From the IMG/VR virus record IMGVR_UViG_3300046517_001051, positions 1-64,000 of that record: DNA of 64,000 nt. The stretch is one strand, 5' to 3'. The position numbers and the translations under genes were made by a program. Below are positions 14,968-43,317 of this stretch, one piece after another. The notes beneath the pieces were generated by a model. The model was not told the DNA's origin. It did not search any database and worked only from the letters and a program-made list of their open reading frames with translations. The stretch is from a virus. The number at the start of each line of letters is the position of its first letter. The stretch's first letter is position 1.

Positions 14968-15231
14968 TCACTCGTAGTCTTCGTCGCGTTGTCTTCCATG
15001 TAGCTTCTCAATCTCGCGGTCTTCCTCAGCATCCATCTCTAGGGCGCGGCGCGACTCGTTGATGTAGACGAGGATCGCCGTCTTGTCATAGTTGTCCGGC
15101 ACCAGGTTGTCCCCGAGCCACAGCAGGTAAGCAGCCGGGACGTCGCGCAGGGCCTGCCCTCGGTATTTGCCGAAGGGCATCCGCGTGTCATCGGTGAACC
15201 GCTCCGCGCGAAGGTCGGGGCGCTCAGGCAC
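14968..15231 (-). CDS. DUF3820-like protein
   Basis: 87 residues from a GTG at 15231, overlapping the radical SAM gene by 8 bp. It carries the signature MPFGKYRGQALRDVPAAYLL (about 18-37), typical of the DUF3820 / exonuclease-associated family in phages and bacteria. The C-terminus is an acidic helix. The family has no settled biochemical function; it often accompanies nucleases and DNA repair genes. Confidence 0.7.
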   Translation of the reverse strand: MPERPDLRAERFTDDTRMPFGKYRGQALRDVPAAYLLWLGDNLVPDNYDKTAILVYINESRRALEMDAEEDREIEKLHGRQRDEDYE

Positions 15232-16624
15232 TAGGGTTCCCCCGCGGGTAGACTGCCTGCTTTAGGTCCGCCGTGCGGAGGGCCTTCGCGGACCCAAACA
15301 GCTCGCTGCCGCACCGTGGTTCCCCTTCGTTGTCGTCGGCGCAGTGGAGACAACCCGTCGGCGCGCAGGCCTTCACTTCCTCGAACCGGTCTCCGAGGTT
15401 GGCTCGCGAGAACATCGGGACCTTATGCCCGTGGCACTGGTCACTGGTGATGAAGTCTCGACCGATCGAGATGCCGCGCTTGCTGGTGATCTCGTCGGAG
15501 ATTGGGTCCCTAGCGTACTTGTACTCATAGCACGTTGCATACGTCAGGCCCAGTGCGGCGGCCCGCTGCGAGTAGCGTCGATGCCCCTCCAGCCGGTAAC
15601 TCTCCTCGACGGTCTTCTGACCGCCGATGTTGTCCTTGAAGAGGCGCTCGAACTCACCACCACGCTCGGGGCCGAACCGTTGCTTGATTCGATCAACCAT
15701 GGCCGGCGCCCAACTGAATCCCGCCTCGACGAACTTGACGATGACGTGATCTGCACCCGCTTCCTTCAAGAGGCCAAACAACGTCTCGACGTCGGAGTGA
15801 GTGACCACGCCGGGGACGATCGGGTTGCACTGAATGCTGACATAGATCCCCGCTGCCTTCAGCATCCGGATCTGGTCAAGGTGATCCTTGAGAGGGAGGG
15901 CGCCGGGGCTCAGCTTCTTCCAGTCTTCGGGAGACGGGGTGTTGATTGACTTCTGGGCGTAGCTGTATGGGTTCTGCTTCAGGAGATCGACGGCCCACGA
16001 CGGGTAGGGGAGTCGCGACAGGAAGAAGATCGGCACACCCTGCTCAACGAATGCTTCTGCTCCTTGCTGCGTGTTGTGGTAGACGTCTTCCAGCGGCAAG
16101 AACGGGTCCGTGAAGGACGAGAAGTAGCCGGCTGCCACCGTCTTCAACCGAGACAATTGAGAGCGAACTTGCGCCCCGTAGTGGACAGGGACTGAGACAA
16201 CACCCGAGCCTCGATAGCCGCGGAACCCCGAGTTGACGTAGCAGAAGGCACAGCCCACCGTGCAGTACCCGCCATAGGGCTCGGTCAGGATTGCATCCGT
16301 GAAGCATGGGCGGGGTCGACTCCGCTCGTCGGGGTCCGTCTTGCTCTGGTACCAGCCTTGCAGTGGCTTCGCTGAGTCGATGCGGATGTGAGGGAGGGGC
16401 TCCAGGTAGATCCGGACGTCTTTCTTGTTCTCATCCTCTGCATTGCGGACCATGCCGATGCGGGCGGTGCGCGACTTCATGATGCGGCCCGTCAGCTCGT
16501 CAAACTCTTCGATGATCGGCCCAAGATCGTCCTTCGGCTCTGGCCGCATGAAATACTGGTACGCCTCACGCGCGGGCTCATCGGAGCCCTTCATCCCGTC
16601 TTGCAGCCAAGCAGCATGATCCAT
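15224..16624 (-). CDS. Radical SAM enzyme, likely DNA base hypermodification
   Basis: 466 residues. The radical SAM [4Fe-4S] motif CTVGCAFCYV has C121, C125 and C128 (CX3CX2C). Near the C-terminus a second Cys set (C420, C425, C428, C438) suggests an auxiliary cluster. An N-terminal part of about 100 residues precedes the barrel. It is immediately preceded by a fold-type II PLP enzyme gene. In the thymidine hypermodification pathways of Salmonella phage ViI and Pseudomonas phage M6, a radical SAM enzyme and a PLP enzyme act on an amino acid joined to 5-hydroxymethyluracil in DNA. With the kinase, transferase and dUMP hydroxymethylase nearby, the same type of role is likely. The exact reaction is unknown. 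Confidence 0.75.
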   Translation of the reverse strand: MDHAAWLQDGMKGSDEPAREAYQYFMRPEPKDDLGPIIEEFDELTGRIMKSRTARIGMVRNAEDENKKDVRIYLEPLPHIRIDSAKPLQGWYQSKTDPDERSRPRPCFTDAILTEPYGGYCTVGCAFCYVNSGFRGYRGSGVVSVPVHYGAQVRSQLSRLKTVAAGYFSSFTDPFLPLEDVYHNTQQGAEAFVEQGVPIFFLSRLPYPSWAVDLLKQNPYSYAQKSINTPSPEDWKKLSPGALPLKDHLDQIRMLKAAGIYVSIQCNPIVPGVVTHSDVETLFGLLKEAGADHVIVKFVEAGFSWAPAMVDRIKQRFGPERGGEFERLFKDNIGGQKTVEESYRLEGHRRYSQRAAALGLTYATCYEYKYARDPISDEITSKRGISIGRDFITSDQCHGHKVPMFSRANLGDRFEEVKACAPTGCLHCADDNEGEPRCGSELFGSAKALRTADLKQAVYPRGNPSA

Positions 16625-16626
16625 GG

Positions 16627-17427
16627 TTAGCCTATGTTCCAGAAGAGAGTTGGGACTGAGTCCTGGAACCTAGTGAGGTACCAGCGCAGTGCCTTCAGGT
16701 CGTAGTATTCATTGCACGGAAATGGTGGCGTGATCCCCGCACGAGCAACGTCTTTGTAATCGTAACCTTCATCAACGATGAGTAAATCCAGTGGCGTCCG
16801 CTCAGTTCTCGATTGCTGTCGGAGGTAGCCCTCGACCTCCGTTGCAGAGCGCGAGTAACCGAGATGTATGACGAACTTTGGGGGCTTCTTTGCGCGAACG
16901 AAGCCCATGACGACGCCAGCGGCGATCGTCGCTGAGCTGGCAGGGATCACCACCCTTTCCACAGACAGAGAGGCAGGGACCTCATCCGCCGTCTCCTCGA
17001 CGGATTCAACTAGCTTCAGGGCATTCGGCATCATATAGGCGTTGGGGTCTTCTCGCATGAGCAGCTTGCGGGCGCCATGATAGATCACGCTAGAACGCCC
17101 CGCTGGGATCCCTCGTAGCTCGGCCCCCAGTTGCTGAGCTGCAAGCTGTTGCGGTGGAATGCCGGGAGCAGAATGAGCATAGAGGGGGTAGAAGTTGATG
17201 CATCGCTTCCCCAACCGTTGGCAGGCAAAGGCCACGGCATGGCCGGCTTGTGAGTGTGATGTGTCTAGCACGCCGATGGTCTTCGCGCTCAGCTTCGAGA
17301 GGTGAGCCCAGACCCCGCGAGCCTTCGAGAAAGGCGGCCCCGGCGGAAGACAGGATAGGTCCTCCCTCTTCACCCAGCAGCGAAGGGTCTCACGATGATC
17401 CTCGACCGGCGTGTTGTGCTGGATCAC
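16627..17427 (-). CDS. Fold-type II PLP enzyme (ACC deaminase/TrpB-like)
   Basis: 266 residues from a GTG at 17427 (GTGA). The N-terminus has VKREDLSCLPPGPPFSKARG with K35 as the likely Schiff-base lysine, as in the SxKxR/NKxR motif of fold-type II enzymes. HSQAGHAVAFACQRLGK follows, matching the substrate-binding SxGNxxxA region, and an SATIAAGVVMGF segment may bind phosphate. The protein is shorter than free-standing ACC deaminases (about 330-340 residues). Beside a radical SAM gene it most likely decarboxylates or rearranges the amino-acid moiety on modified thymine, as in the M6/ViI pathways. Confidence 0.7.
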   Translation of the reverse strand: MIQHNTPVEDHRETLRCWVKREDLSCLPPGPPFSKARGVWAHLSKLSAKTIGVLDTSHSQAGHAVAFACQRLGKRCINFYPLYAHSAPGIPPQQLAAQQLGAELRGIPAGRSSVIYHGARKLLMREDPNAYMMPNALKLVESVEETADEVPASLSVERVVIPASSATIAAGVVMGFVRAKKPPKFVIHLGYSRSATEVEGYLRQQSRTERTPLDLLIVDEGYDYKDVARAGITPPFPCNEYYDLKALRWYLTRFQDSVPTLFWNIG

Positions 17428-21397: not shown

Positions 21398-21884
21398 CCG
21401 ACCTGCTCCATGAGTATGAGTTGATGAACATCTTCATTTCGGCGGGCAGCTCCTTCCGACGGAAGTACTGCCAAGCCTTGTCTCGCATCTTCGCGACGTG
21501 CTGATTGCCGAGGGCCAGCTGGTCGTCGCACCACATGATCAGCTCCAGGGAGTCCGCGCAGCCGAGCCAGTTCGCCTCCTCGGTGTCCAGCTCCGGCAAC
21601 TCGTGGGCCTTGTCTGTTGCCTCATCATCCTCGGCCTGGATCATCCCCTCGTCGAGCATCGGATGCTTCCACTTCGCCGGCGCCGGCACGTCGCCGAGCC
21701 AGCGCTCCAGGTGGTCGTGGCATAGCGCCGCCTCGACGAGCGCGACTGACGGCGACGGATGGAGACACAAGAGGATCTGCGCCACGTTGTAGCAGTGGAG
21801 CCCGACCGAGTAGGACCCGTGGTGCGGTGTCGTGTGGCACCGCTCGACGGCGCCCGACTCCCTGCGGTGTTGGATGCTCTTCAC
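21390..21884 (-). CDS. HD-domain nucleotidase, YfbR-like
   Basis: 164 residues from a GTG at 21884 (GTGA). His residues in RCHTTPHHGSYSVG (about 16-28), the HD doublet in LCHDHLERW (H56/D57), and a following GDVPAPAKW match the YfbR-type 5'-deoxynucleotidase branch of HD phosphohydrolases. A dNMP phosphatase next to a dUMP hydroxymethylase could remove dTMP (or dUMP), so that 5-hydroxymethyl-dUMP rather than dTMP feeds DNA synthesis. Substrate choice is inferred. Confidence 0.7.
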   Translation of the reverse strand: MKSIQHRRESGAVERCHTTPHHGSYSVGLHCYNVAQILLCLHPSPSVALVEAALCHDHLERWLGDVPAPAKWKHPMLDEGMIQAEDDEATDKAHELPELDTEEANWLGCADSLELIMWCDDQLALGNQHVAKMRDKAWQYFRRKELPAEMKMFINSYSWSRSDD

Positions 21885-22903
21885 TTCGGCAGCTCGATCT
21901 TCGGGAACTCGTTGGGAGCATCCTTGGCTGCCTTCGTGTCGGCACGCTGCGCCAGCCAACCTTCACAGGCGACCTTCCAGTCACTCTTGGGGTCCGTGTC
22001 TGCGTGCCACTTCGGCTCGCGGGTCTCCCACATCTCGCGCATCGGCTCGGCGATCGTCTTGAAAAAGTGCGACTTCTGGCAGACACCCCCGCACATGAAG
22101 ATCAGCAGCTCGTCGTCCCACTCGGCGAGCGGCAGGTCGACGATCGGCGTGCTGTTGACCTTCCGGTTGTAGGGGTTCTCTGGATAGTCGTATCCGTCGG
22201 AGGAGAGGTCCGCCATCGCGTACATCAGGTTCCAATGTCTCTCGTAGACGTGGGCGTTGTTACTGATCTGCGTGTAGGTCCCGATCGGGATGCCGATGCC
22301 GGCAGCGAGGTACTCCTGGAGGACGCTGAAGTGCACCGCGTTCGCGCCGTAGCAACCCCAGATGAGGTCGTTGCTGCGGCAGAACACCGTCATGTCGAGT
22401 TCCCCGCCTCCGGCGTTGAACAGCGCGTTGAGGTTGCACGGCACATCCTTCGTCCCCGCCTCGACGGCTCGGGGATCCCCCCAACCGTCCCACATCGAGA
22501 GGACCTGTCGGCGGTCGTAGGGGTCGCGGGCCAGAGCCTCGATGATCACTGACAGTTGGTCTCGACCGTTGAAGTGCTTGCGCCACCGGTGGCCGTACGC
22601 GCCGTTGAGCGTGATGCCGTCGTCGCTGTATTCGCGCATCTGCTTCGCGTACTTGGCGACGAAGTCGACGTCTTTCCGGCCCGACAACATCCAGAGGGCT
22701 TCCATCAGGTGGAAGAACGGATTGGCGTTGCGCTCCTCCCACAGCAGGACGCGGTCCTCTGGGCAGGTGTAGACCGTTGTCAGCGGCTCGGGGAGGACCA
22801 GCACGCTGCCGTTCCTAGATCCCCTCTTCTCGCCTTGGTCGCTCATCAGCTGGCACGCGGCCGGTAGGGCGACGTGAACGCATTCTGCTTCGATCAGTTT
22901 CAT
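21881..22903 (-). CDS. dUMP hydroxymethylase (thymidylate synthase family)
   Basis: 340 residues from an ATG at 22903 with ACAGGA upstream. Family landmarks: GAYGHRWRKHF (about 101-111), catalytic Cys in DVPCNL (C156), FCRSND (174-179), and GANAVHFSVL with N188 at the position that reads Asn in uracil-using enzymes and Asp in dCMP hydroxymethylases. A later NNAHVYERH segment completes the site. Thymidylate synthase and dUMP hydroxymethylase share these features; I choose the latter because genes for modifying 5-hydroxymethyluracil in DNA lie directly upstream. If it were a plain thymidylate synthase the pathway would lack its entry step. Confidence 0.8.
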   Translation of the reverse strand: MKLIEAECVHVALPAACQLMSDQGEKRGSRNGSVLVLPEPLTTVYTCPEDRVLLWEERNANPFFHLMEALWMLSGRKDVDFVAKYAKQMREYSDDGITLNGAYGHRWRKHFNGRDQLSVIIEALARDPYDRRQVLSMWDGWGDPRAVEAGTKDVPCNLNALFNAGGGELDMTVFCRSNDLIWGCYGANAVHFSVLQEYLAAGIGIPIGTYTQISNNAHVYERHWNLMYAMADLSSDGYDYPENPYNRKVNSTPIVDLPLAEWDDELLIFMCGGVCQKSHFFKTIAEPMREMWETREPKWHADTDPKSDWKVACEGWLAQRADTKAAKDAPNEFPKIELPK

Positions 22904-22904
22904 G

Positions 22905-23786
22905 TTAGGTTCCTGTGAATTTCGAGCGGGGCCGACCCTCGCCGTTCTTGACTCGGAGGTATTTGTCCGTCTCGCAGAGCGAATGCTCTATGTCCCGAAG
23001 TTCTAGCTTCGGGAACCCCTCGGGAAGCCGGCTAGGGGCCTCCGGGAGGAGGGATCTCATGAGGGATAGAGCTTCCTCCTTCCGGAAGGGAAAGTCGAGC
23101 CTGCGGCCGAGGAGGCGGTTGAGTCCCCGCAGGGCTCCCGGCCCCGCGTTCGCCCACGTCTCGACGTCCGGCGCCCCGACTAGGTAGCGGGTGTGGCGGA
23201 GATCGGTGACGACCTCATACGACATGAACGGCCCCCAGCCGTGATAGTTCAGGAGGCGCTCCCAGCATTCTCGCAGCGACCGCTGCCCGGTCTGATCTAG
23301 GAAGTAGGTCCACAGCTCGCGATCGTCCCAGAGTCGGCCGAGGACGATGCGCGCGATGTATTGCTGTTTGGTCCACGAGTACCAGGCGCAGCTGGAGTCC
23401 GACTCCGCGCGGATCATGTAGGCGCCAGTATAGACTTGGTCGCCGCGAGCCTTGATCCGGTCGAGGACCTGGCCCATGACGTGAGGCTCGAAGCTGTGCA
23501 TACAGGGCCACGAGCCCTCGCTGTTCATCAGCTCGCGCAGCGTCGGTGGGTGGTTGATCGTCCGAGCGATCGCCAGCATGAGCCAGAGGTGTGGGTGCGA
23601 TGGCCACATCTCGCGGATGTTCTCGCGGATCCAGACGGTCACCTTGTCCAGCTCGCGGAAGACGTTGCAGAACCGGTATTGCTGGAGGATCGGGTCCGCC
23701 GTCCAGGGCTTTGGTTGCCAGGCGGCGCGGCGGTCGTAGATCGCCTGGCGCTCCGTCATCCAGTACCAGAGAGGCTCGGCATTCAC
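22905..23786 (-). CDS. 5-hmU DNA kinase helical domain protein
   Basis: 293 residues from a GTG at 23786 (GTGA with the kinase gene). The start reads FWD/FYD-like WYWMTERQAIYDRR, then KPWTADPILQQYRFCNVFRE, the signature of the family first called alpha-glutamyl/putrescinyl thymine pyrophosphorylase clade 1 and later linked to the helical part of the 5-hmdU DNA kinase. ELDKVTVWIREN follows. A LNYHGWGPFMSYEVVTDLR segment with helix-hairpin-helix-like character may bind DNA. Together with the P-loop protein encoded just upstream it would phosphorylate 5-hydroxymethyluracil in DNA. Confidence 0.75.
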   Translation of the reverse strand: MNAEPLWYWMTERQAIYDRRAAWQPKPWTADPILQQYRFCNVFRELDKVTVWIRENIREMWPSHPHLWLMLAIARTINHPPTLRELMNSEGSWPCMHSFEPHVMGQVLDRIKARGDQVYTGAYMIRAESDSSCAWYSWTKQQYIARIVLGRLWDDRELWTYFLDQTGQRSLRECWERLLNYHGWGPFMSYEVVTDLRHTRYLVGAPDVETWANAGPGALRGLNRLLGRRLDFPFRKEEALSLMRSLLPEAPSRLPEGFPKLELRDIEHSLCETDKYLRVKNGEGRPRSKFTGT

Positions 23787-24352
23787 GAGGCCAACCACTT
23801 CTCAATTAGGGCCTTCTCCTCGCCAGTAGGGCCGAGGATGGCGACGCTGATGGAAGGGTGCGCCAATGCGCGCTTCTTCGTCGCCTCGATTGCTCGAACC
23901 TTGTCGCGCACTAGGTCTTCCTTGATCGGCTGCCCGCCGTTGCGCACCTGGATGCGTCGGAGGCACTCCTCGACCGGTGTGTCGAGGTAGGCCCACAGAA
24001 CTCGGCGACCGACCGAGGCCATCTCATCGGCGAATGTCGCCCAGGATCCGAAGACTGTTGAGCAGAGGATTCCCTCGGCGAAGACGTTGCCTGTCCCCAG
24101 CTCGAAGGACCGCCGAATCGCCTCGCGCTGGATGTCGAATGCCCGGATGGTGTCGAGGCCCCCAATCTTCTTCGGATCCTCGGGGTACCGCCCCACGAGG
24201 ACGTCGCCCTTCAGGTTCATCTGACCGACAACCAGGAGCTTGCGGCTCGGGTCGTTGATGAGGTGCAACTCTAGCCCGTTTGGGAAGAACGACCTTGCCA
24301 GTGTCGACTTGCCAGAGCCATTGGTTCCGCGGATGTTGATGAACGCTCTCAT
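23783..24352 (-). CDS. P-loop kinase, 5-hmU DNA kinase catalytic part
   Basis: 189 residues. Walker A GTNGSGKST (9-17), a substrate-binding middle part, a Walker B-like RRVLWAYLDTP (about 115-125) and a lid with several Arg (RRIQVRNGG). This is the general form of nucleoside/nucleotide kinases. Translational coupling to the helical-domain gene (GTGA) suggests the two proteins form one 5-hydroxymethyluracil DNA kinase, which in phages ViI and M6 activates the base with a phosphate/pyrophosphate. A free nucleotide kinase remains an alternative. Confidence 0.7.
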   Translation of the reverse strand: MRAFINIRGTNGSGKSTLARSFFPNGLELHLINDPSRKLLVVGQMNLKGDVLVGRYPEDPKKIGGLDTIRAFDIQREAIRRSFELGTGNVFAEGILCSTVFGSWATFADEMASVGRRVLWAYLDTPVEECLRRIQVRNGGQPIKEDLVRDKVRAIEATKKRALAHPSISVAILGPTGEEKALIEKWLAS

Positions 24353-24756
24353 GACAGCAGCGCCTCGCGGAGGCCCCGGGCCTTCAATGTGATCTCGGTC
24401 ATGACCGCGTCAAACTCTTTTGAATCCCCGGCCAGCCAATTCGGATCTTTGATATCCAGGCGGATCCTGCGCTGAGGGATGGGAAGATTGGAAGACCACA
24501 ACTCTATGTTGTTGCGCCGATCCATGAGTATCATGACGTCGGCTGCTTGGATCATCTCTGCACTCACCTGCTGGCTGCGGTGCTGTCCAAGGTCGATGTC
24601 GTGGACTCGCAGCATCCACCGCCGCACTTTCGCCGCCGCCTTGCGGCCGCCAGGGAGGAAGCCAGCACTGGTGACGGTGAGCGGTGGCCCGCTGATGAGC
24701 GCCGCGACGGCGGGAGAACGGCACACGTTGCCGTGGCACAGGACTAGGACGTGCAA
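24349..24756 (-). CDS. Low-molecular-weight phosphatase-like protein
   Basis: 135 residues from a TTG at 24756 with GGAG upstream. The N-terminus carries the P-loop of LMW protein tyrosine phosphatases, VLCHGNVCRSPA with C7 and R13 (CX5R), and DPNW near residue 100 supplies the general-acid Asp. It should be an active phosphatase-fold enzyme. In a base-modification cluster it might remove a phosphate from an intermediate, or act on host tyrosine phosphate; neither can be decided here. Confidence 0.75.
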   Translation of the reverse strand: MHVLVLCHGNVCRSPAVAALISGPPLTVTSAGFLPGGRKAAAKVRRWMLRVHDIDLGQHRSQQVSAEMIQAADVMILMDRRNNIELWSSNLPIPQRRIRLDIKDPNWLAGDSKEFDAVMTEITLKARGLREALLS

Positions 24757-25640
24757 GCTAGGATCTCCTTGATGTTGGCCTCGACCTGATCACGGCTCAG
24801 CACGCCGTTGTGGCAGGTCTTCCGCCACCCCTGCTCCAGTCGGTGCTGGTAGGGCTCGAACTTCGGGAACTCGGAGTTGGCATGTTCGGCCAGCAGCGCC
24901 ACGATGGGACGGTCTTCCAGGGCAGCAACGAGAAAGTCTCGGCACCAACTGACGCACGTCTTGACGACGCTCGGTCTCAGGGTCCCCGGGAAGTGCCGGA
25001 ACTCGATGGTTGGAACATCCTCCCGGAGGTGTCGGAGGTTCACGGCGCAGCGCTGAGTCAGGTGCCACTGTGGCTTGCCCTCATGGGACCTCGGGCACTC
25101 TGCCGCGAAGAACTCTTCTGGAGTCTCCGCCCCCATCTGAGCCCGCTGACGATCGGCGGTGAGGATCGTCTGGTGGCTCTTGTGGCGCCGCCGGTACCTC
25201 TTCATCGCGCCGTTCATCTCATCACTGGCACTGTAATCCCTACGCTGCGGCATGGGGATCGGCTCGATGAGGGCGAAGACCTCCCGAAGGTGCTTGAAGC
25301 AGTATGCCGAAACTCGTTTCAGCGCTGCAAGGTCGTGCTCGATCGCCGGCACCTTCACGTGGACGTGGAGGTTGCTGCGGTAGTTGACCCGGGCCTCGGG
25401 GTGCATGGCCAGGAACGTCGCGAGGTGCTCCGCCTGCCCATCGGGGGTGTGCGTCGGCGGGGTGTTCAGCTCACCACCAAGGTGGAACACGAGCCCCTTC
25501 GGGTCCACCGCGACGCCGCAGGAGTTCACCATGGTGTAGTCCTTCAGGTCGAGCCCGAAGCCCAGCGGGATGCCGCGCTCGCGGTGCCAATCAACCAGCT
25601 CATGCTCGCAGCCATACGTCCAGTCTTCTGTGCTGATCAC
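24744..25640 (-). CDS. Amidoligase-like enzyme
   Basis: 298 residues from a GTG at 25640 (GTGA overlap). The opening TYGCEHELVDW places an acidic metal-binding pair on the first strand, as in the COOH-NH2 ligase / glutamine-synthetase-like amidoligase fold. GGELNTPP (about 55-62), NLHVHVKVP (about 86-94) and EFRHFPGTL (about 231-239) match the later acidic and His/Arg active-site strands. Such amidoligases were predicted to act in phage alpha-glutamyl/putrescinyl thymine pathways, joining an amine to an amino acid. It stands between the transferase and phosphatase genes of the same cluster. Confidence 0.7.
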   Translation of the reverse strand: MISTEDWTYGCEHELVDWHRERGIPLGFGLDLKDYTMVNSCGVAVDPKGLVFHLGGELNTPPTHTPDGQAEHLATFLAMHPEARVNYRSNLHVHVKVPAIEHDLAALKRVSAYCFKHLREVFALIEPIPMPQRRDYSASDEMNGAMKRYRRRHKSHQTILTADRQRAQMGAETPEEFFAAECPRSHEGKPQWHLTQRCAVNLRHLREDVPTIEFRHFPGTLRPSVVKTCVSWCRDFLVAALEDRPIVALLAEHANSEFPKFEPYQHRLEQGWRKTCHNGVLSRDQVEANIKEILACTS

Positions 25641-26449
25641 CTTGGCATGCCCTCCAAGAATTGCCTCGCCAAGATGCAGTGGGTCGTCCACGGCGCGAGG
25701 CCGTGCCGGATCTCGTCGATGTCCTTCCGCACCTCGTAGTGGCCGCCAACGTGCGACTTCCACTTGCAGAGGATCGTCTCGACCTCCTGCAGTCCGATCG
25801 GACGGTCGTAGTGCGGCGGGGCGAGACGGCCGGCGAAGTACTCAACAAGGGATCGAGCCGTCGAGCCGACGATATCGAGGGTCGCCGGCCGGCCGCGCAT
25901 GTTCCAGAGCAGCACAGCAGCGTCTCGCGGGGCGTCGAACATCAGGACTTCGCTCTCAGCGAAGCTCACCGGGACGCGCAGGACTCGCTCCAGCATGTCG
26001 GCGACCTTGAACCCAATCCACTCGCCGAAGAGGTAGTGGATCTTGACGCGGCTCATCACCTGCGAGCAAGTCGTCGGGCCGGCGAACCCGGCGCAGTAGT
26101 CCGCCATCACCTCTGGGTGATCCGGGTATCGCTTCCGGAGGCTCTCAACGCACCGGACGGCCGCCGTCCCGCGCATGTGCCGGCGCTCGGCCCCTCGGGG
26201 CCACCTAGACCCGCAGGGGCTCAGCTCGTCGTTCCGGGCCGCCGTGGTCGCCCTGGCCCAGAATCCCGCCGCATCCGGCGCCTCCGCAAGCCAGGAGGCC
26301 GTCCCCGCATGATAGAAGGCCCAGTAGCCGAGGAGCCATCTCCGGAGGGTCGCCGGCGGCCAGTCGACCCGGGAGAGGGCGAGGTACACGGGGTCGAGGT
26401 CCTCGGTGTCGAGGAGGGCCGTCCCGAAGTCTTCGATGGTCTGGGTCAT
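25637..26449 (-). CDS. Amino acid:DNA transferase-like (aGPT-Pplase) protein
   Basis: 270 residues, ATG at 26449 (ATGA). Features: DLDPVYLALSRV (about 17-28), LRRWLLGYWAFYHAGTASWL (35-54), AERRHMRG (about 88-95), and GEWIGFKVADMLERVL (about 142-157) with helix-hairpin-helix-like character. This is the pattern of the families named alpha-glutamyl/putrescinyl thymine pyrophosphorylases, later shown in ViI/M6-type phages to transfer an amino acid onto pyrophosphorylated 5-hydroxymethyluracil in DNA. I infer the same step here. It is the first gene of the modification cluster in transcription order. Confidence 0.75.
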   Translation of the reverse strand: MTQTIEDFGTALLDTEDLDPVYLALSRVDWPPATLRRWLLGYWAFYHAGTASWLAEAPDAAGFWARATTAARNDELSPCGSRWPRGAERRHMRGTAAVRCVESLRKRYPDHPEVMADYCAGFAGPTTCSQVMSRVKIHYLFGEWIGFKVADMLERVLRVPVSFAESEVLMFDAPRDAAVLLWNMRGRPATLDIVGSTARSLVEYFAGRLAPPHYDRPIGLQEVETILCKWKSHVGGHYEVRKDIDEIRHGLAPWTTHCILARQFLEGMPR

Positions 26450-32969: not shown

Positions 32970-33274
32970 CGCGGGTCCTGCAGGTCGCGGGGATTGTGAC
33001 CCCTCATCTTCTTGATCATCTTCCTGACTCGCCTCTCCTGGGCCTCCACCCTCATGGCCCGCCAGTTGGTCCATGCCAGCCAGAGCTTGATCGCGCCGAG
33101 CGCGAGCCCGACGAGGACCAGAATAACCGTCCACGGCCCCCAGAACGGCGCCGTCACCCACCACCAGCTCCAGTCGATCTTGTCGCAGAGCTTGAGGACT
33201 ACGAACGCCACGCCGAGCATGTTGAGCGCCATGCTGGAGGCGACGAGCTGCGTGCCGCGAGTAGTGTCAGTCAT
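32966..33274 (-). CDS. Membrane protein with two helices
   Basis: 102 residues from an ATG at 33274. Two membrane helices: about 13-30 (SMALNMLGVAFVVLKLCD) and 46-67 (GPWTVILVLVGLALGAIKLW), then a basic cytoplasmic tail (RRVRKMIKKMRGHNPRDLQD). Function unknown. Confidence 0.6.
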   Translation of the reverse strand: MTDTTRGTQLVASSMALNMLGVAFVVLKLCDKIDWSWWWVTAPFWGPWTVILVLVGLALGAIKLWLAWTNWRAMRVEAQERRVRKMIKKMRGHNPRDLQDPR

Positions 33275-33530
33275 GCTTGTATGCCTCCAGCATCTTGTAA
33301 GTCTCCCACAGCGCCTTCTTGATGACCGAGCCTCGCAGCTCGGCGTCGTTGATCTCCAGCCAGGCGGTGCCGCCGAGCCGGTCCGTCTGCTTGACCTCCA
33401 CTGCGAAGCAGTCCTCGCTGAGACCGATGACGCGAACGATACTGCCGTGGGCGCGGCCCAAGGGCAAGTACTCGCCCTGCCACACCAGCATCGGCTCGCG
33501 CTTCTCCAGCTCGTGGACTCGCAGCGTCAT
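33267..33530 (-). CDS. Hypothetical protein, 87 aa
   Basis: ATG at 33530 (ATGA with the NAMPT-like gene). A small beta-barrel-like protein (LVWQGEYLPLGRAHGSIVRV). It is directly downstream of the NAD genes and translationally coupled to them, so it might be an accessory part; this is only positional. Confidence 0.55.
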   Translation of the reverse strand: MTLRVHELEKREPMLVWQGEYLPLGRAHGSIVRVIGLSEDCFAVEVKQTDRLGGTAWLEINDAELRGSVIKKALWETYKMLEAYKHD

Positions 33531-35014
33531 GACTGGCCCCTCAGCGTCTCGCGGACATTGGCGAAGGTCTGCGTCCGCAGGAAGCAGCCGTCGCGCCAGA
33601 CCGGCTTGAGCAGCGAGTGCGACGAGTCGGCGGGGAGCTGATCGCAGAGCACCAGCTTGCCTGACTCGGGACTCTTGAGCACCGCCAGCCGGCCGCGGGC
33701 CGAGTGCTTCGTTCCGTCGTCGGTGGCCGGCTTCTTGTAGAGGTCGCGCGACTCGCCACCGACCATCGCCCAGGTCGCCTTCATGGCGAACCCGAACGTG
33801 TCGCGGGTGACGTGCTGGTAGGTGTAGCTGCCGACGCCGAACACGACGTTGGTCGACGCGAAGCCGGCGGCGCCGAGCCGCTCGACGATCTCGCGCGCCC
33901 GCTCGTACGTGATCGCGTCGCCGTAGATCACGCCGACGTGCGAGTCCAGCTGCCGGTGGCCGGTGCTGGTCCGCGTCCCGCCGAAGACGTCCCAGAGGAG
34001 CTGGACGACGCCCTTGATGGCTGGTCCAGCCGAGACGGTCTGCCCAGTCACCGCGGCGTAGTCGTCGCCGCAGAGGATCTTGACGGGATCACCGCTGTCG
34101 GGGCGGATCACCAGCTTGCCGTCGCGCGCCATGATCTTCGCCTTGAGCGAGGGCAGCGTCTCGGTGAGGACCGACCAGAGGTCCCACGTGTCGGAGACGA
34201 CCGACACGATGCCGGTGGGATACAGGCTCAGCAGGCGCTCGAACGTCTCACGCTCGCCCTCCTCGCCGCCGGCCGACATGACGCTGTGCTCGGTTGCCGG
34301 GACGCTGCCGCCGACGAGGCCGTTGCCCTCGATATAATGGGGTTGGCCGCCGTAGTACTCGTCGACGAACGGGAGCGCTGGTAACGTGTCGGTCCCCGTG
34401 AAGCTGAGGAGGTGCGCCGCGCCGCTGAGCTGCGCCGCTTCGACGCCGGCCATGCCGCGCATCGAGAAGTCGTGGCCCTGCCAGGGGACGAAGTCCGGGT
34501 CACCGCCAGTGAGCCTCGCCGCCTCGTCGAGCATGGCGCGGAGCCGGTGCGCGCTCGTCGCCGACGTGCACGGCAGCCAGAGCACGTTGCTCATCAGCGT
34601 CTCGACGTAGTTGACGAGCCAAGCGAAGTCGTCGTGCGTGTTCTCGACGGTCAGCATCGGCACGCGCAGCGGGCAGCGAGTGCCTTCTGGGAGGGCTCTG
34701 AACTCCAGCGGCACGTGGCCCAGCCGGTGCAGCGCGCGGACGTGGTCGGTGCCAATGGCGTTCGGGCCGAGGTAGCGGTCGACGAGCGTCTTGTACTCGT
34801 CGCAGACGTCCTGCGTCGGCCGCTTGAACCAGGACTCCATCTCCTCGCACAGGTACTTCTGGAGGAAGTACTGGAGGCCAAAGAACACGACGCGGTCCAC
34901 GCCCTCGACGCGCGAGCTTCGCGGCGTCCAGTTCGAGTAGACGCGGGTGGTGCCGGCGGGGTACTGGCGCCGGTGGTCCAGCTTGTAGCCGTCGATCAGT
35001 AAGAGGGGATTCAC
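33527..35014 (-). CDS. Nicotinamide phosphoribosyltransferase-like (NAMPT/Namat)
   Basis: 495 residues, the usual length for NadV/NAMPT. Landmarks: DGYKLDHRRQYP (8-19), QGHDFSMRGM (179-188), the catalytic His in VPATEHSVM (H243), VSDTWDLW (273-280) and VIRPDSGDP (302-310). Family enzymes join nicotinamide to PRPP to make NMN. The gene overlaps a PRPP-synthetase-like gene (ATGA). This two-gene set is also the layout of the phage NAD+ reconstitution pathway NARP1, in which the NAMPT homologue (Namat) joins nicotinamide to ADP-ribose pyrophosphate made by a Prs homologue (Adps), giving NAD+ directly. Which substrate is used cannot be read from the sequence by eye. Confidence 0.9.
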   Translation of the reverse strand: MNPLLLIDGYKLDHRRQYPAGTTRVYSNWTPRSSRVEGVDRVVFFGLQYFLQKYLCEEMESWFKRPTQDVCDEYKTLVDRYLGPNAIGTDHVRALHRLGHVPLEFRALPEGTRCPLRVPMLTVENTHDDFAWLVNYVETLMSNVLWLPCTSATSAHRLRAMLDEAARLTGGDPDFVPWQGHDFSMRGMAGVEAAQLSGAAHLLSFTGTDTLPALPFVDEYYGGQPHYIEGNGLVGGSVPATEHSVMSAGGEEGERETFERLLSLYPTGIVSVVSDTWDLWSVLTETLPSLKAKIMARDGKLVIRPDSGDPVKILCGDDYAAVTGQTVSAGPAIKGVVQLLWDVFGGTRTSTGHRQLDSHVGVIYGDAITYERAREIVERLGAAGFASTNVVFGVGSYTYQHVTRDTFGFAMKATWAMVGGESRDLYKKPATDDGTKHSARGRLAVLKSPESGKLVLCDQLPADSSHSLLKPVWRDGCFLRTQTFANVRETLRGQS

Positions 35015-35901
35015 GAGAGGAGCATCCTCGCCACGGCCTCGCGGCCGACGGTCTCAAGGGGGACGACGGTGAACCGATCACTGAGCCCTGATGTCTGCAT
35101 CGGGAACGAGTCGGTGGTGAAGATCTGTTGGTAATACTTGAGCAAGTCGCCAGTGCCCTTCGAGAAGATGCCGTGCGACACGACGAGGTCCAGCGTGACG
35201 TGACGACTGAACGAGGTCAGCACCTCGCCGAGCCCGACGAACGTGCCCCCGCCATCGCAGACGTCGTCCACGACGAGGTAGTGGCCGTGGGGCACCGGCT
35301 CACAGGCGAACCTCGTCAGCTTGCCGGTGTCCGGGTCGCGGTGCTTCGTCGCCTGGTACACCGGCACATCGAGCATGCGGGCGAAGTCCTCGGCGCGCCG
35401 GGCGGCGCCCGCGTCCGGTTGGATCACGCCGCGATATCCACGTAGCGGGATCGCGTCGACGAACGGATGCGCGGGGTCTATCGCGAGAAACTCCGGGCCG
35501 AACAGCGCTGCGAGCACGGTGCTGTGAGGATCTAGCACGACGACCGAGTCCAGCTCGTAGGGTCGCAGCGTCTCGGCGTAGACCTTCGCGGTGAATGCGT
35601 GCCGCCCGTCGCGTCGGTCTTGCCGGGCGCCGGGAAAGTACGGGCAGAACAGGCCGAGCTTGCGGGGCCGCTGCGCGCGGACGGCGTCGAGGAGCGCCAG
35701 CAATGTCAGCCACCCGTCGGCGTCGCAGATCCTCGCGTCGACGTACAGCGCACCCTTCTCGGCATCCTGCAGGTTGACCACGACGTGCGGCTCGCCGCCG
35801 GGGAACGTCAGCGACTGGTGCTGGATCGTCCCGACGACGTTGATCGGGTTCGGCATGACCAGCTCGCAGGCGACCCAGTGGAGCGTGAGCTTGGATCTCA
35901 T
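35011..35901 (-). CDS. PRPP-synthetase-like enzyme (Prs/Adps)
   Basis: 296 residues. FPGGEPHV (33-40), PYFPGARQDRR (87-97), VLDPHST (122-128), QPDAGAARRAE (161-171) and the PRPP-loop VVDDVCDGGGT (210-220) match class I PRPP synthetases. It is slightly shorter than cellular Prs (about 310-320). Several allosteric-region positions differ, and FSDGE of cellular enzymes is FPGGE. It would make PRPP from ribose-5-phosphate, or, if it is an Adps, pyrophosphorylate ADP-ribose. Coupled by ATGA to the NAMPT-like gene. Confidence 0.85.
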   Translation of the reverse strand: MRSKLTLHWVACELVMPNPINVVGTIQHQSLTFPGGEPHVVVNLQDAEKGALYVDARICDADGWLTLLALLDAVRAQRPRKLGLFCPYFPGARQDRRDGRHAFTAKVYAETLRPYELDSVVVLDPHSTVLAALFGPEFLAIDPAHPFVDAIPLRGYRGVIQPDAGAARRAEDFARMLDVPVYQATKHRDPDTGKLTRFACEPVPHGHYLVVDDVCDGGGTFVGLGEVLTSFSRHVTLDLVVSHGIFSKGTGDLLKYYQQIFTTDSFPMQTSGLSDRFTVVPLETVGREAVARMLLS

Positions 35902-40602: not shown

Positions 40603-43317
40603 CTAGATCGGCGGGCGAGAGGGGTCGCCACGGCCGCGCGATCCCGGTGCGATCGGCGCCCATTGCGTCTTCGGCATCGTCACGCTGCTGCCGGCGAGGC
40701 TCCCGCCGCTCACACGCGACGGCGGTGGCGCCGCCGTTGTGTCAGAAGGTAGGCCGAGAAAGCCCGTGCCCGCACCCACGGTGCCACCGCTCGCCGCGCT
40801 CACAGCTGCGGAGACGGTGTTGGACCAAGGACCGCGTCCGGCGAAGTTCGTCGCCGCGACCTGCATGTAGACGAGCGCACCGGGAAGCGACTGGAGCTGG
40901 TACGTCGTCGAGCCGCCACCGAGACCCGTAGTGACGATCGTCCAGTTGACCTGATCGGTGGACCATCGCACGTCGTAGCCAGTCGTCGAGTAGTTGCCGG
41001 TGTCGGTCCAGTTCACGTTGGCGCGGGCGATGCCGACGCCCAGCGCGCTCGTCGCCGTTGGCGCCGCCTCTGGAATCACCAGCGCATTGCTGAGGGCCGG
41101 CACGAGGTTGTCATAAGACCCCTTCATGCACCAGTCATAGATGTACTCAGCGGTCCAGAACTTGTTCCAAGCGCCGCGGCGATTCAGGGCACACTGTGCC
41201 ATCAAGTAAGTGACATTGCCGTTGCCTGGGCTCCGGAAGTTCGCGTAGTCGGTGACCCGCTTCTCCAGCGTGAACACCGGCGGGACGGAGAGGAACTGAG
41301 ACGTCACGTCGCTCGTGTTGCTGGCCCACGTCGCGTTCGTCCGGCCAACCGCGTTGAAGATGAACCAGTTGCCGTCCGCCATCACGCCGTTGTCGGCCGC
41401 GTTGCGCACGTAGTACGTGTTGCTCGCGAACGAGAAGCCGCCAGTCGGCGAGAACGCCTGCGACGACTTGAAGATGATGCACTCGTTGACGTACTTGAAC
41501 GCCCAGAGCACGCACCGCTGGAACGTGATCAGCCCATTGATCTGGTTGCCGTTCGAGAAGTTGACACACCCGTTCTGCGACTTCAGGACGGTGTCCTGGA
41601 ACGTGATCGCTCCACCGTGGAAGCTGCTGTTCAGCTGATACTGGATCTGCGACCCGGCATAGCTCGACATCACCTCGCCCGGCATCGCCGACCCGTTGTG
41701 CACATAGCGGTCGAGCAGCATCGTCGGGTTGTCGTGGGCCGAGCCCGTGCCGGAGTTCGGGCCACCGAGGTAGAGCGGGACGCCGCCACTACCCGCCAGG
41801 TCGATCTCGCCCGTGCCGTCGTTGAGCACATTGCGGTAGGTGATCGACTGTGTCGCCTGGACCACGGGGCTGCCGCCGCCGTTGTTCCACCAAGCGCCCT
41901 CGGCACCGGATCCGATCGGCGACATGATGATCACGCACCGGTCCATCAGGCCACCCGGGCGCAGCATCATCTGGTTGCCCATGCAGACGCAATTGCGGAT
42001 CACGAGCCCGGTGATCGTGCGCTGGATGTAGACGTTGTGGCGATACTGCGAGTTGTTCGAGTGTGGGATGATGTAGGCCGACGTCTGGCCAGGCTGCGCG
42101 CCGTAGTACCCGTTGTTCCAGTTCTCAGAGAGAGTCAGTGTCGTCGCAGTGTTGGTAGCGATCAGCCGCCACAGGCCCGCAACCACAACCGACCGACCGG
42201 TGTGCTCGTTGACTGTCCAGGCCTTGCCGGAGTCCGTGAGCGAGCCAGCGCCAGTCGCCGTCGAGGTGCCGCTGTCACGGTCATCGAACCCCGTCCTGAA
42301 GTAGCCGTTGTGATCAAAGACGCAATTCTCGATCACCAGGCTGTCGGTGTCACTAAAGATGACGCCAGACGGATACTGGCCCGCGCCGCTGTCGACGGCG
42401 TAACCGCCGCACTCCTGGATCGCGCTGTTGCGCAGCTTGAGACCGTTGATGCGTGCGACGTCCACACCATCCGCGTTGCCGACGGCGTAGATGCCGAAGT
42501 TGCAGTGCGCGATGTGCAGATCCTCGAACAGCCAGTTGGCCGCGGAGCCGGCCGTGTTCTGCGACAGCTCGATGCCGTGGAAGTTTCCGAGCTGCGCGCC
42601 GTTGGCGACGAAGTCGGCGTGCCGGGCCGCCGCAGTCGGCGATAGATCCAGCCCCTGGATGACCCACGTCGGGTTGTTCGTGTTCGTGTTGCAGTGGATG
42701 ATCGTGTGGCCGTCCGTCGAGCCATTGAAGATCGGCCTTGCAGTCGCCGGGTCGCCATACGAACCGAGGACGTTGGCGAACGCCGTCGACAGCGCGCCGT
42801 TCAAGTTCTTGTCGAAGACGCGCGAGGTGAACGTGCCGCCGCGCTTGAACAGGACGTGGTCTCCCCACGCCGCGGCGTTCGTCACCGTCAGCGGCGTCAG
42901 CTTCGGCCCTGACCCGTGACCAGTCGTCGTGTCGACGCCGGTGTTGCCGTCGTTGCCGGCCGGGTCCACGAACCACCGGCGAGCGCCGCCAGGCTTCTGA
43001 AGTGGCTCGGTCGTCCACGTCACGCCGTTGGCATCGGAGTAGGTGAACCGCGACGCCGCAGCATACTGCGGCTCGACGGCTGCGACCCAGGTGACGTCGC
43101 TGTTCAGCTTCGCCTGATAGTAGTACGCCGTCGCCGAGCTGTTTGTCAGTACGTCGTTGTAGACGTAGCCGGTGGTCGCGTTGGTGAACGTCGTCCACCC
43201 AGCCAATCCGTTGGCGTCTAGGCTCCGCCTGATGTCGACGGACGCCCCTGCGTGACCCTCCAAGACTACGTCGATGGAGGCACTGTTGCAGAGGGGAAGA
43301 ACCTTGGTGACTGCCAT
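40603..43317 (-). CDS. Tailspike with right-handed beta-helix and Fn3 domain
   Basis: 904 residues. Residues 1-110 form an N-terminal beta domain. WFVDPAGNDGNTGVDTTTGHG (split over 114-134) is the usual opening of phage pectate-lyase-like beta-helix proteins, and about 135-640 is rich in short turns with Asn/Gly and repeated I-N-C/H-C patterns (LVIENCVFDHNG, LVIRNCVCMGNQ), the rungs of a parallel beta-helix. An inserted module (about 360-410) resembles modules in two other proteins. A fibronectin type III domain lies at about 765-850 (TGYDVRWSTDQVNWTIV). It probably binds and may cut a host polysaccharide; no catalytic residues can be named. Confidence 0.75.
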   Translation of the reverse strand: MAVTKVLPLCNSASIDVVLEGHAGASVDIRRSLDANGLAGWTTFTNATTGYVYNDVLTNSSATAYYYQAKLNSDVTWVAAVEPQYAAASRFTYSDANGVTWTTEPLQKPGGARRWFVDPAGNDGNTGVDTTTGHGSGPKLTPLTVTNAAAWGDHVLFKRGGTFTSRVFDKNLNGALSTAFANVLGSYGDPATARPIFNGSTDGHTIIHCNTNTNNPTWVIQGLDLSPTAAARHADFVANGAQLGNFHGIELSQNTAGSAANWLFEDLHIAHCNFGIYAVGNADGVDVARINGLKLRNSAIQECGGYAVDSGAGQYPSGVIFSDTDSLVIENCVFDHNGYFRTGFDDRDSGTSTATGAGSLTDSGKAWTVNEHTGRSVVVAGLWRLIATNTATTLTLSENWNNGYYGAQPGQTSAYIIPHSNNSQYRHNVYIQRTITGLVIRNCVCMGNQMMLRPGGLMDRCVIIMSPIGSGAEGAWWNNGGGSPVVQATQSITYRNVLNDGTGEIDLAGSGGVPLYLGGPNSGTGSAHDNPTMLLDRYVHNGSAMPGEVMSSYAGSQIQYQLNSSFHGGAITFQDTVLKSQNGCVNFSNGNQINGLITFQRCVLWAFKYVNECIIFKSSQAFSPTGGFSFASNTYYVRNAADNGVMADGNWFIFNAVGRTNATWASNTSDVTSQFLSVPPVFTLEKRVTDYANFRSPGNGNVTYLMAQCALNRRGAWNKFWTAEYIYDWCMKGSYDNLVPALSNALVIPEAAPTATSALGVGIARANVNWTDTGNYSTTGYDVRWSTDQVNWTIVTTGLGGGSTTYQLQSLPGALVYMQVAATNFAGRGPWSNTVSAAVSAASGGTVGAGTGFLGLPSDTTAAPPPSRVSGGSLAGSSVTMPKTQWAPIAPGSRGRGDPSRPPI

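Follow-up and report, generated by a model that had tools for sequence, protein, structure and literature searches.

An overlapping adps-namat gene pair on an uncultivated phage record

The window analyzed here, 64,000 nucleotides corresponding to bases 1-64000 of a 66,403-base IMG/VR virus record, carries on its minus strand two adjacent genes, adps first and namat second.

35011..35901, minus strand: adps, predicted ADP-ribose phosphorylase/pyrophosphokinase (Prs fold), 296 aa, ATG start; phrog_619, DyoEdafos clade
33527..35014, minus strand: namat, predicted nicotinamide ADP-ribose transferase (NAMPT fold), 495 aa, GTG start; phrog_448, Namat clade
35011..35014, minus strand: 4-nt overlap of the adps stop and the namat start, GTGA, read from the junction sequence

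A preliminary description of this DNA had reported a 296-residue PRPP-synthetase-like gene overlapping a 495-residue NAMPT-like gene, and both reading frames are exactly as it gave them. The 4-nt GTGA overlap suggests translational coupling of the two genes. The GC content of the pair, 0.66-0.68, equals or slightly exceeds that of its surroundings in the window and thus gives no clear sign of recent import.

The Prs-like protein groups with Adps

The adps product matches phrog_619, a family annotated as ribose-phosphate pyrophosphokinase, with an E-value of 1.8e-57. Against TIGR01251, the model of true ribose-phosphate diphosphokinases, it scores 92 bits and falls below the curated cut-off of 113 bits, which was passed in 14 of 14 control genomes. 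The protein is 35% identical over 271 aa to the Adps of the Mycobacterium phage DyoEdafos, and its best identity to any relative found is 45%. A careful maximum likelihood (ML) tree places it in a 19-row group with DyoEdafos Adps (support 100/97), while ten true Prs sequences form one side of a branch with support 99/98; the exact position of the window row inside the Adps group is not fixed by this tree, in which several phage rows are long-branched.

The residue comparison covered 156 Adps-like proteins and 10 Prs. The catalytic residues of Escherichia coli Prs (H131, D170, K194, R196, D220 and D221) are invariant throughout this set and are kept in the window protein as H126, D163, K186, R188, D212 and D213. 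The differences lie elsewhere. The loop associated with the phosphate of ribose-5-phosphate (R5P) reads DDVCDGGGT in the window Adps vs DDMIDTGGT in Prs; T225, invariant in the 10 Prs, is glycine in 152 of the 156 Adps-like proteins and in the window, and the position of Prs L229 is occupied by phenylalanine in all 156. Adps-like proteins also have replacements at three residues close to the ribose-phosphate site, Q134, G137 and F138. In established Prs structures the DDMIDTGGT-type loop binds the 5'-phosphate of R5P, the group that bears AMP in ADP-ribose, and the loop changes in Adps would therefore be compatible with the larger substrate. By clade, score and loop, the Prs-like protein is a predicted Adps, distinct from true Prs. 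How Adps accepts ADP-ribose has been listed as an open question, no Adps structure existing (PMC12774641); the substitution of T225 by glycine and of L229 by phenylalanine, together with the replacements at Q134, G137 and F138 (Prs numbering), may supply candidate residues.

The NAMPT-like protein carries the Namat selectivity clamp

Family searches assign the namat product to phrog_448, annotated as nicotinamide phosphoribosyl transferase, with an E-value of 2.4e-191, and to PRK09198 (E 3.6e-162); for both gene products of the pair, the homology far exceeds what chance would give. In the PDB, the top hits are the structures of SPbetaL1 Namat with nicotinamide and NAD+ (9W5X and 9W5W, E 7e-162; PMC12774641), and Xcc Nampt comes next at E 1e-67. 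What tells Namat from Nampt is a selectivity clamp published in 2026 (PMC12774641): the motif GSX-phi-X-phi-X-phi-TRD, whose third and seventh positions are aromatic, and a residue of the beta1-beta2 loop that provides stacking. The window protein contains the clamp helix motif as GSYTYQHVTRD, with histidine rather than tyrosine or phenylalanine at position 7, as in DyoEdafos Namat. At the clamp loop (SCL), where arginine, lysine or tyrosine were allowed as stacking residues, it has an arginine (TPRSSR) aligned with R40 of SPbetaL1 Namat.

Of the 20 residues through which SPbetaL1 Namat contacts NAD+, 18 are identical in the window protein. The two changes, F392Y and Y396H, are both found in other Namats; Xcc Nampt has alanine and lysine at these positions, and position 396 across 80 related viral Namats is tyrosine in 65, phenylalanine in 8, histidine in 6 and methionine in 1. 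The catalytic core of the Nampt fold is also kept (SPbetaL1 F189, R192, D215, R306 and D308, and the catalytic-histidine motif TEHS). The active-site residues are intact in both proteins of the pair, as the preliminary description had stated.

With DyoEdafos Namat the window protein shares 57% identity, and a quick ML tree, with SH-aLRT values as the support measure, puts the two in one 19-row group (SH-aLRT 100), from which four reference Nampts are split with a support of 97. Clamp and clade together identify the NAMPT-like protein as a predicted Namat, not a Nampt. The same tree groups with the Namats a solved protein named NAMPT (PDB 9KE8/9KEO), whose motif, GAQTYQRNTRD, has no clamp aromatic at position 3 or 7; the substrate preference of that protein would bear on the validity of the clamp motif.

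A predicted NARP1 module for NAD+ reconstitution

The adps-namat pair is very probably a phage NARP1 module that rebuilds NAD+, a reading based on homology and phylogeny, on the retained catalytic residues and clamp signature, and on the order and overlap of the two genes. In the proposed mechanism, host NADase defences (TIR, SIR2, SEFIR) would cleave NAD+ and leave ADP-ribose and nicotinamide. Adps would then transfer pyrophosphate from ATP onto ADP-ribose to form ADPR-PP, and Namat would combine ADPR-PP with nicotinamide to give NAD+ directly. Because ADP-ribose and nicotinamide are the leftovers of such defences, the phage would refill the NAD+ pool during infection rather than block one particular defence. 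We infer these reactions and the anti-defence role of the window pair from relatives for which the reactions are demonstrated, at 57% (Namat) and 35% (Adps) identity. DyoEdafos Namat and Adps make NAD+ in vitro from RyDEP-cleaved 2'cADPR (PMC13232231), and NARP1 pairs from phages as well as bacteria have shown anti-defence activity when tested (PMC12774641).

The preliminary description had put forward NARP1-type NAD+ reconstitution as a candidate function, with a classical nicotinamide salvage pair giving NMN as the alternative, and had proposed phylogeny to separate the two. Clades, clamp motif and Adps-type loop support the former. Both proteins lie with the biochemically proven DyoEdafos Adps and Namat, apart from cellular Prs on the one hand and the Nampts of Xcc and of phages on the other, and neither tree places them with true PRPP synthetases and NadV.

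Classical salvage, in which a true PRPP synthetase would make PRPP for a true NAMPT (NadV) to form NMN, involves the same folds and the same order of steps, and the generic family models do name the two proteins ribose-phosphate pyrophosphokinase and nicotinamide phosphoribosyltransferase. Namat, moreover, retains NMN-forming activity in vitro: a tested enzyme still uses PRPP, with about half the activity of human Nampt (PMC12774641), so some NMN production by the window Namat in the cell would be compatible with its sequence. We nevertheless judge classical salvage very unlikely, since clamp residues absent from Nampt are present in the window protein, this protein is placed with the Namats, and the Prs-like protein does not group with the Prs sequences, scores under the cut-off of the Prs model and has an altered R5P-phosphate loop. 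A PF01467 search of the record also found no NMN adenylyltransferase that would complete the path, though a host enzyme could serve.

The same search bears on a NARP2-type pathway, which pairs a Nampt with a phage NMN adenylyltransferase and has in its favour the NAMPT fold only. PF01467 (CTP_transf_like) is unmatched in the 66.4-kb record, whereas phiCbK, which carries a Nampt-Nmnat pair, and 14 of 14 controls match it; the gene linked to the NAMPT-like gene is, furthermore, Prs-like. We give NARP2 hardly any credence.

Small flanking genes

The preliminary description had also set the pair within an array of small accessory genes. A run of small minus-strand ORFs does surround it. No named function was found for them, however, and they are not conserved beside NARP1 in relatives, so "accessory genes" stands as a positional label only. 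No conserved third gene emerged beside the pair, the flanking window ORFs being nearly without matches in 170-odd related NARP1 loci. One of them, ORF 33267-33530, shares 4 nt with the end of namat. That this or another small ORF of the array might be a third component supplying ADP-ribose or handling its cyclic forms, in a role like that of RyDEP in DyoEdafos but with a different fold, appears highly improbable. A RyDEP-like gene with a RyR domain was sought in the window by tblastn and with PF02026; neither found one, and the DyoEdafos positive control matched PF02026. Two other uncultivated phages have RyR-domain genes directly downstream of namat (L007:6358-6804 and L011:6198-6467), an order that differs from DyoEdafos, where RyDEP sits between adps and namat. 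Promoter-like sites numbered 0 vs 0.8 expected by chance, and terminator-like sites 7 vs 4.4 expected, none of them informative.

Distribution and probable mobility of the pair

NARP1 is a known, widespread and already structurally studied system present in many phages. A relative of Namat/Nampt is encoded in about 1,936 of 50,697 phage records, and of the 80 related viral loci retrieved, 79 have an Adps-like gene alongside Namat. A search of viral contigs for relatives of the window Adps with back-translated peptides returned none, the protein being too divergent for this method; Adps relatives were collected via the neighbours of Namat genes.

Among named phages, those of Gordonia and Mycobacterium carry the closest relatives of the pair. 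The best named matches of the capsid and of the DNA-transferase are in Vibrio and Pseudomonas phages, and the backbone resembles that of the complete 56-kb phage ctIqW946 (primase 48%, helicase 47%, DNA polymerase 42% and capsid 35% identity), in which neither adps nor namat is present. Because a phage of related backbone lacks the pair and the pair's own relatives lie in Gordonia and Mycobacterium phages, the pair most plausibly represents an accessory module exchanged among phages.

This distribution also touches on what the module is for. NARP1 chemistry could serve mainly the general NAD+/ADP-ribose economy during infection rather than counter-defence: an Adps-like gene accompanies Namat in 62 of the 80 bacterial homologue loci retrieved, mostly from Bacteroidota, and a housekeeping role has been proposed for bacterial NARP1 (PMC12774641). 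The anti-defence activity of the tested pairs (PMC12774641) and the standing of the window pair as a phage accessory gene set missing from a related backbone make this the less likely use, with a low chance of being correct.

A contig from an uncultured Acidimicrobiales MAG (CALEWY010000019.1) also carries a NARP1 pair, with a Namat 63% identical to that of the window and the Adps nearest to the window Adps by tree path; this contig may represent a prophage or may come from a phage that was co-binned with the bacterium.

Probable DNA hypermodification and other genes

Two further regions and one large gene on the minus strand deserve description.

15224-17427 and 21881-26449, minus strand: probable thymidine-hypermodification genes, from family matches
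40603-43317, minus strand: 904-aa protein with no PHROGs match, between the tail genes and the small-gene array

The hypermodification regions contain matches to 5-hmdU DNA kinase (PF18723, E 1e-56; PF18748) and to amino acid:DNA transferase (PF18724, E 2e-18), together with a thymidylate-synthase-like gene, a weak amidoligase match, phrog_9252 ('DNA repair photolyase') and a PLP enzyme. The phage may thus carry hypermodified DNA as a second counter-defence. A search for the amino acid:DNA transferase in the NARP1 relatives gave 0 matches, as did its controls, and is therefore uninformative. The 904-aa protein is possibly a tail fibre or depolymerase. With the present pair, NARP1 gains a member in an uncultivated phage whose DNA is probably hypermodified as well; what remains of value is the comparison of Adps loops and this combination of NARP1 with a probable hypermodification pathway.

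Comparison with known systems

DyoEdafos (NC_053511; gp77 Adps, gp79 Namat) encodes the same two enzymes in the same order, with the same SCL arginine and the same histidine at clamp position 7, at the identities given above. Its pair is biochemically active on ADP-ribose, and between its two genes lies an RyR-domain gene (RyDEP, gp78) that the window lacks. SPbetaL1 Namat (9W5W/9W5X) shares with the window protein its 18 identical NAD+-contacting residues, among them the SCL arginine and the clamp Thr-Arg-Asp, and differs at F392Y and Y396H. The Gordonia phages Octobien14 and SpeedDemon have an adjacent pair like that of the window, with Namats about 59% identical, and Octobien14 also has the 4-nt overlap and the histidine at clamp position 7; the phage neighbourhoods are otherwise unrelated. 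Cellular Prs and Nampt/NadV have folds and catalytic residues in common with the window pair, but Prs lacks the Adps loop CDGGGT, Nampt/NadV lacks the Namat clamp aromatics, and both form clades separate from the window proteins.
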